Source: Sulfurimonas sp. (GTDB lineage Bacteria > Campylobacterota > Campylobacteria > Campylobacterales > Sulfurimonadaceae). Taken from it: DNA of 32,948 nt. Numbering within the stretch: the first letter of the stretch is position 1; the number at the start of each line of letters is the position of its first letter. The notes below the pieces were generated by a model. That model saw nothing but the letters and a program-made list of their open reading frames with translations. It did not search any database and was not told where the DNA came from. Of the stretch, positions 72 through 4,198 are shown one piece after another. The position numbers were made by a program, and so were the translations under genes. The stretch is from assembly GCA_027063295.1 (NCBI GenBank), contig JAMORZ010000144.1, positions 1 to 32,948 on the forward strand, read 5' to 3'.

Positions 72-2147
72 ATGAGAAATTTTTTTATATATAGCCTCTT
101 TGTATTTCCTTTTCTTGGGGCTGTTTTATCGTTTGTATATTATCAAGTAGAGCCATTTGAGAGTTTCGCATTACACTTTAATGATGTTAATTTTGAGTTA
201 GACAATAAAAAACCACATGATGATATAGTATTTGTAGCAGTTGATGAGAAGAGTGTCAATGAATATGGACGTTGGCCTTGGGATCGTGAAAAAATTGCAA
301 AAGGTTTAGATAATCTTACTCAAGCTGATGTTGTTTTGTTTGATATGATTTTTTCTGAACCAACATCATACAAACAAGATAGTATCTTAAGTCGATCGTT
401 GCAGCATCTTGACAATAGTGTTTGTGGATTTTTTTTACGACATAATGCAACACAAAATATTAGTGAGGATGCTTTGGATATCCTAAGTGATTCTGCACTC
501 GATAGATTGCAAATGCAGATTGCTGCCTCACAAAATGCAAAGCCACGTTTTATATCTGCTCCATTTGCAGAAGTTAATATTATTCCTTTTTTAGAATCAT
601 GTACATTATCTGCTACATTCTCCACTATTAGAGCATCTGATGAAAAGTTTAGAGAGTATCCTGTTGCACTCTATTTTCAAAATCTTCTTTATCCAACTTT
701 AGCAATTCAGGGGTTGCGTTTAAAACTGAACCAAGATATACAAAGAGTGAGCGATACACAAGTGCAGATAGGATCCAAACTTATTGATCTTAGTGATAGG
801 GGCACAGTTCGTTTAAATTATTATCCCCTTGAAAGCTATAGGGTTGTCTCTTTTTTAGATGTAGTAGAGAAAAAGATCACCCCATCATACTTCAAAGATA
901 AGATTGTTATCTTGGGTGTAACAGAAGTTGGATCTGGAGATATTGTAAGTGCACCTATAGGATCGATTCCAGGACCGTTAGTCCATTATACTTTTCTTTC
1001 AAATATATTAGATGGAACATTGATTTATGAAAAAAATTGGATCAATTATACTTTAGTGATTATACTATCTTTGCTTCCTCTGTTTTTTATTTTATTTATT
1101 CAAAAAACTTTCTATAGAGTTTTATTCAATCTCAGTATCTATATCATTGTATATATATTGGTTCGTTATCTTTTTGTACAAGAACATATCTATATAGACC
1201 TCTTTTATCCTCTTGTAGGTCTTGTAGGTAGTACAATGATTGTAGAGGTGTTGGCTTTTACTCAAAAAGAAAAAAGTGAAAAGTTTTTAACGGGTGCATT
1301 TTCTTCTTATCTATCAGGTGATCTTTTAGACCAGCTTGTAAAAAATCCCCAAGCACTTGCTTTAGGTGGAGAGAAAAAAGAGTTAAGCATACTTTTTAGT
1401 GATATTCGTGATTTTACATCAATGTCGGAGAGTATGGAACCAGAAGAGCTCATTGTTTTGTTAAATCGTTACTTTACACCAATGACAGAGGTAGTATTAC
1501 AAAATAAGGGGATGCTTGACAAATATATTGGTGATGCTGTTATGGCTTTTTTTAATGCACCTGTTGATGTGAAAGATCATGCTTCTGCTGCTTGTTTGAG
1601 TGCTGTTGAGATGCTCAAAAAACTTGAAATTCTCAATCATGAACTCACTAGCGAGGGTAAACCTTCTTTAAAGATAGCAATTGGGATCAATACCGCTGAG
1701 GTTATTGTTGGCAATATGGGGTCAAATAGCCGTTTTAACTATACTGTTGTAGGTGATGGTGTGAATCTTGCATCACGTGTTGAGGGACTAACAAAGATTT
1801 ATAATCAAGAGCATGGGGAGATCAGCGTAGATATATTGATTACAGAATTTACAGTAAAGCACTTAGAAGATAAATCATTTGTATACAGAGAAGTAGAACC
1901 AGTACAAGTAAAAGGTAAAGAAGATGTTGTAGTGATTTTTCATCTTCTTCCTCAAACGAAAAAAGCACAACAATTAAAAGAGGAGTATGAAAAAGCTCTT
2001 AATACCTATAAAGATCACGATCTTACACAAGCGAAGATTCTTTTTGAAAATATTGTACAAAAGTATGATGATAGTTTATCTAAATATTTTGTAAAAAAGA
2101 TTACAGAAGGTAAAAAATGGGGTGTGCATATAATGGAAGGGAAATAG
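72..2147 (+). CDS. CHASE2-domain class III adenylate cyclase, membrane-bound
   Basis: This 691-residue protein probably makes cAMP at the inner membrane in response to a periplasmic signal. Residues 1-20 form a first membrane segment. Residues about 30-315 read as a CHASE2 sensor (VAVDEKSVNEYGRWPW near 55-70). Three hydrophobic segments follow at about 324-343, 350-369 and 375-397. The class III cyclase domain spans about 435-620. It has metal-binding Asp444 (FSDIRDFT) and Asp488 (LDKYIGDAVMAFF), and transition-state Asn565 and Arg569 in GDGVNLASR. Lys484 and Thr558 sit at the purine-specifying positions, the combination expected for adenylate rather than guanylate cyclase; that assignment is an inference. 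A charged tail of about 70 residues follows. The start has little Shine-Dalgarno sequence, suggesting coupling to the gene ending 2 nt upstream. The TAG stop directly abuts the ATG of the phosphodiesterase gene. Confidence 0.9.
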   Translation: MRNFFIYSLFVFPFLGAVLSFVYYQVEPFESFALHFNDVNFELDNKKPHDDIVFVAVDEKSVNEYGRWPWDREKIAKGLDNLTQADVVLFDMIFSEPTSYKQDSILSRSLQHLDNSVCGFFLRHNATQNISEDALDILSDSALDRLQMQIAASQNAKPRFISAPFAEVNIIPFLESCTLSATFSTIRASDEKFREYPVALYFQNLLYPTLAIQGLRLKLNQDIQRVSDTQVQIGSKLIDLSDRGTVRLNYYPLESYRVVSFLDVVEKKITPSYFKDKIVILGVTEVGSGDIVSAPIGSIPGPLVHYTFLSNILDGTLIYEKNWINYTLVIILSLLPLFFILFIQKTFYRVLFNLSIYIIVYILVRYLFVQEHIYIDLFYPLVGLVGSTMIVEVLAFTQKEKSEKFLTGAFSSYLSGDLLDQLVKNPQALALGGEKKELSILFSDIRDFTSMSESMEPEELIVLLNRYFTPMTEVVLQNKGMLDKYIGDAVMAFFNAPVDVKDHASAACLSAVEMLKKLEILNHELTSEGKPSLKIAIGINTAEVIVGNMGSNSRFNYTVVGDGVNLASRVEGLTKIYNQEHGEISVDILITEFTVKHLEDKSFVYREVEPVQVKGKEDVVVIFHLLPQTKKAQQLKEEYEKALNTYKDHDLTQAKILFENIVQKYDDSLSKYFVKKITEGKKWGVHIMEGK

Positions 2148-4064
2148 ATGAAAGATTTTAACTTTTTAGATTCAGAGGAGGTTTTGGGATTAGTATTTAA
2201 GTATCTAACAGATCTTTCAACACTCCAGGATTTTGATGAGATTTTGATTAAGCTAGCTGATCTTGGTAGGGCATTGACATATTCTCATCGTGCTACAGTG
2301 TGGGTTGTTCATGCTAATCGAGAAACAATATGGACAAAAGTTGCTCATGGGATAGATCATATAGAGTTACCTATAGATTCTGGATTGGTTGGATATGCAA
2401 TGAAGCATAAAAAGCAGCTTTTGGTTGATGATGTTTATCGTGATCCCCGTTTTAATCAAGAGGTCGATAGGGTTACAGGGTACAAAACAAAAAGTATGCT
2501 AGTGATTCCGATGTATGATCATGTTGGTGAAGTGATAGGTGCATTTCAAGTGATGAACAACATGAGAACAGATCAGAGATACTCACAAAAAGATTTAGAT
2601 CATCTTCTATTGGCTGCAACTTATGCTACAGAAACACTTATAACAAAACAGTTGGCTACTGAGATAGAAGAGACCCAAAGAGAGGTAGTATTTACAATGG
2701 GTGCTATTGGAGAGAGTCGTTCTCAAGAAACAGGTTATCATGTAAAACGTGTAGCAGAATACTCAAAAGTACTCGCATTGGCATATGGACTTTGTGAAGA
2801 TGAAGCAGAGCTTTTAAAGCAAGCTTCCCCTATGCATGATATAGGAAAAATTGCTATTCCTGATTCGATTTTAAATAAGCCAGGAAGATTTAATGATGAT
2901 GAAAGAAAGATTATGAATACCCATGCAGAGCTTGGGTACAATATGATCAAGAACTCTCAAAGAGATCTTTTAAAAGCGGCTGCTATTGTGGCTTATGAAC
3001 ATCATGAAAAATGGGATGGAACAGGCTATCCTCGTGGTTTGTCGGGTGAAAACATTCATATATATGGTCGTATTACTGCAATCGCAGATGTATTTGATGC
3101 GTTGGGTAGTGATAGAGTTTACAAAAAAGCTTGGAAGGATGAAAAAATTTTAAAACTTTTTCATCAAGAAAAAGGGAAACATTTTGATCCTAAGTTAGTT
3201 GAGCTGTTTTTTGAAAATCTTAATGAGTTTTATTCAATTAGAGAAAAATTTAAAGATCACTATGAACCAAAAGAAGTCAAAGAGGCAAAAAGATCTGTAA
3301 AAGTTTTGGGAGCATACGGAACAAAAGCTAAAAATTATGGAACAACATCTTTTTTACTTAATGACAACCATGTGATAGATGCTGGCAACTTATTAAGTGC
3401 TTTAGAGGAAAAGTCTGTACAAATAACCCATGTCTGGCTTACACATGCTCATTTGGATCATATATCAGATATAGCATATATTTTAGATAACTATTTCTCA
3501 CTTCGTAAACACACTTTACATATAATGGGATTAGAATCAACAATTAAAGCATTGCAAGAACATTACCTCAATGATATTATATGGCCAGATTTTTCAAAAA
3601 TATATTTGTATGATAGTGATGTTGTTGCTGTAGAATATACAATTATCGATCTGGAAAAATCTTATCAAATAGGTAAAGATGAGTACATTTTAGCATACAG
3701 CACAGATCATACTGTCGAGAGCTGTGGTTATATATATACTCAAGATGATAAAGCATTACTTATTAGTGCAGATACATTCTCTTTAACATCTACATTGGAG
3801 ATGTTGGAAAAAAATCAAAATATCTCTGCAATGGTTCTAGAATGTTCATTTCCATCATCATTGGAAGATTTGGCAAAAACAACAAAACATTTAACACCAA
3901 AAACTCTCTTTAGTGGATTAGAGAATATGCCAAGAGAGGATATTGCACTTTATATTAACCATATTAAGCCAATATATGAAAATAAAGTTATTTCAGAAGT
4001 CAATGAAAAAAGCGGTAAAATAGGGGCTAAGATAGTAAAAGATGGAGAAATTTTACATTTTTAA
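2148..4064 (+). CDS. GAF - HD-GYP - class II cyclic-nucleotide phosphodiesterase fusion
   Basis: This 638-residue protein has no membrane segment and three readable domains. Residues about 28-165 are a GAF sensor. Residues about 185-365 are an HD-GYP phosphohydrolase with HDIGK at 230 and the full HHEKWDGTGYP signature at 285-295, the c-di-GMP phosphodiesterase hallmark. Residues about 385-638 are a metallo-beta-lactamase fold resembling class II cAMP phosphodiesterases: THAHLDHIS at 432-440, a downstream His521, Asp542 in ISADT, ECSF at 565, and His581 in KHLTP, so the expected metal ligands are present. By inference one polypeptide may destroy both c-di-GMP and cAMP, with the GAF domain sensing a ligand, possibly a cyclic nucleotide. 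Its ATG touches the cyclase stop, so the two are co-translated. The C-terminal domain could be a diverged MBL hydrolase, but the HAHLDH motif favours class II PDE. Confidence 0.85.
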   Translation: MKDFNFLDSEEVLGLVFKYLTDLSTLQDFDEILIKLADLGRALTYSHRATVWVVHANRETIWTKVAHGIDHIELPIDSGLVGYAMKHKKQLLVDDVYRDPRFNQEVDRVTGYKTKSMLVIPMYDHVGEVIGAFQVMNNMRTDQRYSQKDLDHLLLAATYATETLITKQLATEIEETQREVVFTMGAIGESRSQETGYHVKRVAEYSKVLALAYGLCEDEAELLKQASPMHDIGKIAIPDSILNKPGRFNDDERKIMNTHAELGYNMIKNSQRDLLKAAAIVAYEHHEKWDGTGYPRGLSGENIHIYGRITAIADVFDALGSDRVYKKAWKDEKILKLFHQEKGKHFDPKLVELFFENLNEFYSIREKFKDHYEPKEVKEAKRSVKVLGAYGTKAKNYGTTSFLLNDNHVIDAGNLLSALEEKSVQITHVWLTHAHLDHISDIAYILDNYFSLRKHTLHIMGLESTIKALQEHYLNDIIWPDFSKIYLYDSDVVAVEYTIIDLEKSYQIGKDEYILAYSTDHTVESCGYIYTQDDKALLISADTFSLTSTLEMLEKNQNISAMVLECSFPSSLEDLAKTTKHLTPKTLFSGLENMPREDIALYINHIKPIYENKVISEVNEKSGKIGAKIVKDGEILHF

Positions 4065-4073
4065 CAAAAACCC

Positions 4074-4102
4074 TTGACATTAAAAACTTTTTTGTCTATA
4101 AT
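4074..4102 (+). promoter_or_regulatory. Consensus sigma70 promoter for the tRNA-tuf operon
   Basis: TTGACA (4074-4079) and TATAAT (4097-4102) are separated by exactly 17 bp, a perfect match to the housekeeping consensus. Initiation would fall near 4109, 13 nt before the first tRNA. The -35 box begins 10 nt after the preceding stop codon. Confidence 0.9.
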
Positions 4103-4121: not shown

Positions 4122-4198
4122 GCCGACATAGCTCAGTTGGCTAGAGCAGCTGATTTGTAATCAGCAGGCCCGGGGTTCAAATCCTCGTGTCGGCACCA
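4122..4198 (+). tRNA. tRNA-Thr (UGU)
   Basis: A complete cloverleaf of 77 nt including an encoded CCA. The acceptor stem pairs GCCGACA with TGTCGGC. The anticodon stem GCTGA/TCAGC encloses loop TTTGTAA with anticodon TGT at 4156-4158, reading ACA threonine codons. The T arm contains GGTTCAAATCC. First gene of the tRNA-tuf cluster, which parallels the thrU-tyrU-glyT-thrT-tufB order of E. coli. Confidence 0.97.

Follow-up and report, generated by a model that had tools for sequence, protein, structure and literature searches.

The DNA analyzed here, called the window, is a 32,948-nucleotide stretch of Sulfurimonas sp., a sulfur-metabolising relative of Campylobacter (contig JAMORZ010000144.1 of assembly GCA_027063295.1, forward strand). 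At its beginning two genes adjoin (Table 1). The first encodes a class III adenylate cyclase with a CHASE2 sensor domain. The second encodes a protein in which a GAF domain and an HD-GYP domain, of the type that acts on cyclic di-GMP (c-di-GMP), are joined to a class II cyclic-nucleotide phosphodiesterase (PDEII) domain, so that predicted enzymes for the removal of c-di-GMP and of cyclic AMP (cAMP) lie in one polypeptide next to a predicted source of cAMP.

The coordinates of both open reading frames (ORFs) had been given in an earlier sequence-only reading of this DNA, with the second ORF at the next base after the stop of the first, and they agreed exactly with the ORF listing. The ATG of the fusion gene directly follows the TAG stop of the cyclase gene with zero spacer. 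A purine-rich GGAAGGGAAATAG stretch is located ahead of this ATG, inside the end of the cyclase gene, and can serve as a possible ribosome-binding site for the fusion gene. Since the promoter match downstream of the pair precedes transfer RNA (tRNA) genes, which begin at position 4122, and an ORF similar to elongation factor Tu, the pair probably closes a transcription unit of its own. Only 71 bases of contig precede the cyclase gene, and any upstream neighbours of the pair are located beyond the contig edge.

Chance or mis-assembly of a single metagenome-assembled genome was ruled out, because the pair recurs in many genomes, some of which are complete. Elsewhere, 22 near-full-length relatives of the fusion protein were found with identities of 53-66%, and the architecture recurs at the homologous loci with the catalytic residues kept.

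Table 1. Features of the cyclase-fusion locus in the window.
Feature	Position	Strand	Evidence
CHASE2-class III adenylate cyclase, 691 aa	72..2147	+	ORF; Pfam CHASE2 and Guanylate_cyc; nearest solved cyclase domains
CHASE2 periplasmic sensor domain, residues 19-334	126..1073	+	Pfam PF05226, E 5.9e-41
Cyclase catalytic domain, residues 435-620	1374..1931	+	Pfam Guanylate_cyc, E 1.3e-25
GAF-HD-GYP-class II phosphodiesterase fusion, 638 aa	2148..4064	+	ORF; Pfam
GAF domain, residues 28-161	2229..2630	+	Pfam GAF_2, E 1.3e-7
HD-GYP domain, residues 172-370	2661..3257	+	PmGH alignment; Pfam HD_5, E 2.5e-35
Flexible linker between HD-GYP and PDEII, residues 371-383	3258..3296	+	Predicted local distance difference test score (pLDDT) <50 at residues 373-379, full-length model
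Class II cyclic-nucleotide phosphodiesterase (metallo-beta-lactamase) domain	3297..4061	+	Pfam PDEase_II; structure model; fold match
Perfect sigma-70 type promoter match, TTGACA-17-TATAAT	4074..4102	+	Sequence; ahead of tRNA/tuf genes

The adenylate cyclase

The CHASE2 domain is located at the N-terminus, ahead of membrane helices that were judged from the sequence alone. In the catalytic domain, the metal-binding residues Asp444 and Asp488, the substrate pair Lys484/Thr558 and the transition-state pair Asn565/Arg569 were conserved in 100% of 70 homologues. Together with the Pfam matches, these six invariant residues bear out the earlier description of a CHASE2 class III cyclase with all catalytic residues. 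The closest solved cyclase domains were found to be the Anabaena CyaB1-type cyclase domain and P. aeruginosa CyaB. Lys/Thr is the ATP-type substrate pair of class III cyclases, and the pair identified here aligns with that of the solved adenylate cyclase P. aeruginosa CyaB (3r5g). Judged by its family, the enzyme is predicted to convert ATP to cAMP.

The class II phosphodiesterase domain

The last domain of the fusion matched the Pfam family PDEase_II (PF02112) with an E-value of 8.8e-13 and 48.5 bits (cut-off 23.7). Models of other metallo-beta-lactamase (MBL) families matched more weakly, namely Lactamase_B_2 with 6.4e-6 and RNase_Z with 7.4e-8, the latter far below its cut-off, as were PhnP and others, and the PDEase_II assignment of the sequence-only reading therefore held against them. 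The structure of the isolated domain was predicted with a pLDDT of 97.8. Yeast PDE1 (4ojv) was the top PDB match by sequence profile (E 1.5e-15) and also the top fold match of the predicted model (E 2e-15), ahead of YhfI, Apyc1 and RNase Z; the anti-Pycsar enzymes Apyc1 were likewise near in the fold comparison. RNase Z, PhnP and YhfI were each rejected as the best match of the domain by Pfam, PDB profile and fold.

The domain carries H433-A-H435-L-D437-H438, H521, D542, H581 and H605. The residues of the two-metal site, H433, H435, D437, H438, H521, D542 and H605, were conserved in 97-100% of 112 domains, and H433, H435, H438, H521 and H581 were invariant across 92 aligned PDEII domains; the class II site had been called intact from its HAHLDH motif and the later His, Asp and His, which was confirmed by this conservation. 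The motifs NDxIWPDF and HLTP/HLSP are common to the PDEII domain and PDE1. From its family the domain is expected to turn cAMP into AMP.

The GAF-HD-GYP half of the fusion

Residues 6-370 of the fusion align end to end (E 1.4e-99) with PmGH of Persephonella marina (4mcw), an active c-di-GMP phosphodiesterase with a solved structure (PMC4159591). The metal ligands of PmGH are E185, H189, H221, D222, H250, H276, H277 and D305 (PMC4159591). All eight equivalents are present in the window protein (E194, H198, H230, D231, H259, H285, H286 and D314), and the equivalents of PmGH D308 and K225 are kept as well. E194-T195-G196 was aligned to PmGH, and both the E/D-T-G motif of the trinuclear subgroup and the HD..HH..GYP motifs could be identified. 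With a full-length match to PmGH and all eight ligands, the case for this half is stronger than the intact HD-GYP motifs from which it was first recognized. Judging by its family, the HD-GYP domain would split c-di-GMP to GMP. In the genome of the window 26 GGDEF matches were found, so c-di-GMP is likely made there. Matches of fusion proteins to T2SSE were traced to shared GAF similarity only and were rejected.

Occurrence and gene arrangement in Campylobacterota

In total, 397 Campylobacterota genomes were searched for PF02112 and for class III cyclases. Matches above the family cut-off were counted, and two marginal cyclase matches were excluded from the co-occurrence counts. PDEII was found together with a class III cyclase in 75 genomes and alone in 16, a cyclase alone in 3, and neither in 303 (counts uncorrected for relatedness). 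For the analysis of the neighbourhood, 92 loci around PDEII and the window (93 in total) were used, and neighbours were classed with profiles built from the window domains. A CHASE2 cyclase was located within 5.5 kb of PDEII at 59 of the 93 loci, and in 55 of these 59 a GAF-HD-GYP protein was fused or nearby. A survey of GAF-HD-GYP-PDEase_II fusions and their neighbours across the phylum, as proposed in the sequence-only reading, was hereby carried out, and the fusion was found to be recurrent and cyclase-linked.

Three arrangements could be distinguished. Arrangement A, to which the window belongs, has the order GAF-HD-GYP-PDEII. Arrangement B has the order PDEII-GAF-HD-GYP, mostly with about 780-800 aa and an insert in the HD-GYP domain after HDIGK; a short version without this insert also exists. 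Arrangement C consists of three genes, typically for cyclase, GAF-HD-GYP and PDEII, which overlap or are a few bases apart.

Some loci deviate from these types. Tandem PDEII gene pairs with a 4-base overlap and a GAF-HD-GYP gene nearby were found at L137:7171-8714 and L157:6186-7819. At L192:6480-13500, from the genus of the window, a PDEII gene occurs with an unfused long-insert GAF-HD-GYP gene, a SlipAM gene and a CHASE2 cyclase gene that is unusually long (1069 aa). In L014 and L133 the cyclase gene is distributed over two ORFs (367 and 312 aa; 545 and 135 aa) beside an intact fusion, which represents either a sequencing error or decay.

Evolution of the fusion

The trinuclear subgroup of HD-GYP proteins is defined by an E/D-T position (PMC4159591). 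At this position, the HD-GYP domains of type A and of nearly all type C proteins have E-T. The long type B proteins have Tyr, His or Phe and are of the bi-metal type where Tyr or Phe is found. In the HD-GYP tree, types A and B are separated by a branch of about 3 changes per column with a support of 100, and the type A domains are placed among ordinary HD-GYP proteins that have no PDEII attached; the outside HD-GYPs were gathered by similarity to type A only, which gives thinner sampling around type B. Given this split and the position of type A among unjoined proteins, the joining of PDEII and GAF-HD-GYP took place on at least two occasions, in opposite orders and with different HD-GYP subfamilies. 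The repeated joining in opposite orders suggests that both signals are switched off together. Within the A/C group, the state changed between fused and split at least three times in the best tree.

In one genome of the window's genus (G311), an A module and a B module are present together. The cyclases of these two modules are 30% identical to each other, and the B cyclase is 65% identical to a cyclase from another family; the PDEII domains show the same pattern. Across 79 loci, the identities of cyclase and PDEII were correlated (r 0.76, uncorrected for relatedness). From this pattern and the correlation, the module appears to travel as a unit.

In genome G266 (locus L168, identical to L010) a type A fusion is broken into a 325-aa GAF-HD-GYP protein and a 141-aa PDEII remnant, and the search for class III cyclases found none in this genome. 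The remnant is located at L168:6521-6946 after the GAF-HD-GYP ORF, and an inverted FecR/SlipAM pair was observed upstream.

The GAF domain as a candidate receptor

Among solved structures, the type A GAF domain matched, after PmGH and other HD-GYP proteins, CyaB2 first and then PDE6, PDE5, PDE2 and PDE10. The best solved match of the type B GAF domain was the CyaB2 GAF (E 3.1e-18). Two Crp/Fnr-like proteins were found in the genome of the window, both without the cAMP signature GE..R(S/T)A. The same applies to most of the Crp/Fnr-sized matches examined, a subset of all, in ten related genomes. Among the Crp/Fnr-sized proteins examined in these eleven genomes, the signature was identified in one PAS-like protein of 258 aa and one protein of 138 aa; it is also present in a few other proteins with a cyclic nucleotide monophosphate (cNMP) domain in the ten related genomes. 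Because the signature is scarce in the Crp/Fnr-sized proteins examined, the GAF domain is a candidate cAMP receptor, and no more than a candidate.

Neighbouring genes

Within the genus, the locus is usually found between yaaA and tuf, with a FecR-domain gene directly upstream of the cyclase gene. Each of the 9 further cyclase-linked type A loci in the census has the FecR gene at this position; in the window, such a gene would fall beyond the contig edge. At other loci the cyclase gene is flanked by genes for FecR and a TPR/SlipAM outer-membrane protein. FecR and/or SlipAM was found at 51 of the 59 cyclase-linked loci compared to 1 of the 34 others. Of the 37 cyclase-linked type B loci, 31 have a TPR/SlipAM protein in the vicinity of the cyclase, compared to none of the type A loci. 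TbpB was rejected as the identity of the conserved neighbour, which is FecR and is fused to a TbpB-like barrel only in L130. There (L130:1622-3229), the FecR domain with its TbpB-like beta-barrel is located beside a SlipAM protein and a CHASE2 cyclase.

Relatives in Pseudomonadota

In a scan of 399 Pseudomonadota genomes the same PDEII subfamily was common, apparently as a stand-alone protein in nearly all of them. The sole long frame that might have represented a fusion outside Campylobacterota (G784, 647 aa) was rejected; it is a 339-aa ORF overlapping the cyclase gene. PDEII was found beside a CHASE2 cyclase in eight fetched Pseudomonadota loci, and L244 has CHASE2 without a detected cyclase.

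MshEN domains show c-di-GMP-type binding. In genome G754 (L241:1-12227) a run of genes encodes a CHASE2-Ser/Thr kinase, PP2C, FHA, a CHASE2-cyclase, PDEII, a cNMP-binding-rhodanese protein, a GAF-MshEN-type II secretion system (T2SS) ATPase and GAF-HD-GYP. By their predicted domains, the making, breaking and binding of cAMP would adjoin c-di-GMP-type binding and breaking in this genome. The run reads as a two-messenger control locus for a secretion- or pilus-type ATPase. A conserved MshEN-ATPase effector in Campylobacterota was considered and dropped, since MshEN occurs in 263 of the 397 genomes, far above the number of PDEII carriers, and is uninformative.

A different setting was observed at L237:4536-9482, where the domains were checked: trpBA on one side and accD-folC-like genes on the other enclose a PDEII gene of the stand-alone kind. 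Similar gene sizes were found in L228-L230, L232, L233, L236 and L242.

Proposed function of the module

Domain identity, intact catalytic residues, recurrent linkage, repeated joining with two HD-GYP lineages and correlated divergence were directly observed. Building on these, we consider it fairly probable that the pair combines an envelope-sensing cAMP source with an eraser of cAMP and c-di-GMP that is probably gated by cAMP at its GAF domain; substrates, GAF ligand and coupling are what we infer here. CHASE2, probably together with the periplasmic or outer-membrane FecR protein whose gene adjoins the cyclase gene in relatives, would set the cAMP output of the cytoplasmic cyclase. The PDE1-like MBL domain of the fusion would remove cAMP, and its HD-GYP domain c-di-GMP or a related cyclic dinucleotide. 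The GAF domain would most likely bind cAMP (or cGMP) and gate one active site or the two together, so that an increase in cAMP would be self-limiting and would locally lower c-di-GMP as well. More tentatively, and with the odds somewhat against it, one polypeptide could erase both messengers with its GAF domain as a main cAMP receptor in these bacteria, such that a cAMP pulse first triggers c-di-GMP breakdown and, after that, the breakdown of cAMP, as a self-terminating relay from one messenger to the other. The scarcity of the GE..R(S/T)A signature in the Crp/Fnr-sized proteins examined would agree with such a relay.

Several points weigh against an eraser of cAMP and c-di-GMP gated by cAMP, the first of which concerns the HD-GYP domain. 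Asp183, which is required for the activity of PmGH (PMC4159591), corresponds to Ser192 in the window and to Ser in 92 of 94 relatives. V-cGAP3 (5z7c), named as a phosphodiesterase of 3'3'-cyclic GMP-AMP (3'3'-cGAMP), likewise has Ser at this position, which indicates that Asp is not a strict requirement of the HD-GYP family; the substrate could by the same token be 3'3'-cGAMP. Such an activity, or a role of HD-GYP as a c-di-GMP-sensing regulatory domain that controls PDEII, would also fit the type B domains, whose nearest solved relative is V-cGAP3. We regard it as unlikely, since PmGH (E 1.4e-99) is a much closer match of the window's HD-GYP domain than V-cGAP3 (E 5.5e-36), the GYP motif is conserved together with all eight metal ligands, and the 26 GGDEF matches make c-di-GMP a likely product of this genome.

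The second point concerns the coupling of the domains. The full-length model leaves the domain packing unfixed, with a predicted template modelling score (pTM) of 0.46. In addition, the strict GAF signature NKxnFx3DE was found in 32 of the 45 type B proteins of the long form and in 0 of 24 type A proteins; the window reads N-N-x-Y-x3-D-L at this position and lacks the signature. The domains could be linked for shared expression only, each acting on a separate pool, with a GAF domain that senses a ligand other than a cyclic nucleotide. The flexible linker and the uncertain packing agree with this, as do the split three-gene versions and the at least three changes between fused and split, which show that the parts need not be physically fused. 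Against it stand at least two joinings in which the HD-GYP subfamilies differ and the domain order is opposite, the overlap or abutting of the genes even where they are split, and the GAF domains of both types, whose nearest solved relatives outside HD-GYP proteins are cyclic-nucleotide GAFs. We regard linkage for expression alone as quite improbable.

The third point concerns PDEII itself. In some Pseudomonadota the PDEII gene is flanked by trpA and accD and has no cyclase gene in its vicinity, and 16 of the 397 Campylobacterota genomes have PDEII without a detectable class III cyclase; from both, PDEII has roles outside the cyclase circuit. It is very unlikely that the domain is an MBL hydrolase that acts on RNA, a metabolite or a different cyclic nucleotide and has no control of cAMP: PDE1 ranks first in both the sequence-profile and the fold comparison and has the NDxIWPDF and HLTP/HLSP motifs in common with the domain, and the co-occurrence with class III cyclases is very strong. 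What favours such a hydrolase, besides the trpA-accD setting and the structural neighbours RNase Z, YhfI and PhnP, is that the domain is short (about 255 aa) and divergent, with 38-70 bits for the stronger Campylobacterota matches versus 175 bits for the canonical PDEII of Psychrosphaera. Finally, the co-occurrence and correlation figures are uncorrected for relatedness among the genomes, and no biochemistry on any member was found in the literature searches.

In the reading as an eraser of both messengers, the destroying enzymes of cAMP and c-di-GMP would be covalently joined, and their operon would also contain the source of one messenger. Provided that the activities are as predicted, the module represents a compact natural circuit that clears two second messengers together, and it hints at a possible mode of action of cAMP in a phylum in which adenylate cyclase is absent from most species.

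Comparison with known systems

According to a study from 2022 (PMC9239204), the adenylate cyclases of Campylobacterota all have CHASE2, most of them cluster with a cAMP phosphodiesterase, a FecR protein and a TPR protein, and horizontal transfer took place. This cluster resembles the window in the CHASE2 adenylate cyclase and the cAMP phosphodiesterase, and horizontal transfer was inferred in both cases. In the main text of the study, GAF is not mentioned, nor is any fusion of a cAMP phosphodiesterase with HD-GYP, although such a fusion may be drawn in the figures; the opposite domain orders and the three-gene version found here are absent from that text as well (PMC9239204). The sequence-only reading knew of no described system with the whole arrangement; this stands for the HD-GYP fusion and GAF as far as that text goes, whereas the cluster of cyclase, phosphodiesterase, FecR and TPR proteins was already published. 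The literature searches, in which subscription papers were thinly covered, found no account of HD-GYP joined to a class II phosphodiesterase. The cluster is thus known, and the two-messenger eraser and its repeated assembly appear to be undescribed.

PmGH of P. marina (4mcw; PMC4159591) has the same ligands and the same long helix between GAF and HD-GYP; it differs in having no PDEII domain and in Asp183, where the fusion of the window has Ser. The nearest mechanistic relative is Bd1971 of Bdellovibrio, a single protein that links cAMP to c-di-GMP breakdown, as described in the accessible part of PMC6717892. Bd1971 combines cNMP-binding with EAL and senses cAMP but does not destroy it, and that part describes no cyclase in the same operon (PMC6717892). 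Anabaena CyaB1 and CyaB2 have the same class III cyclase type and a regulation of the cAMP level by cyclic nucleotides through GAF, but in the Anabaena enzymes GAF and cyclase are located in one protein with positive feedback and no phosphodiesterase. Yeast PDE1 (4ojv) has the same fold, the HxHxDH site and the NDxIWPD and HLTP/HLSP motifs; compared to it, the PDEII domain of the window is about 110 residues shorter and is joined to GAF-HD-GYP.

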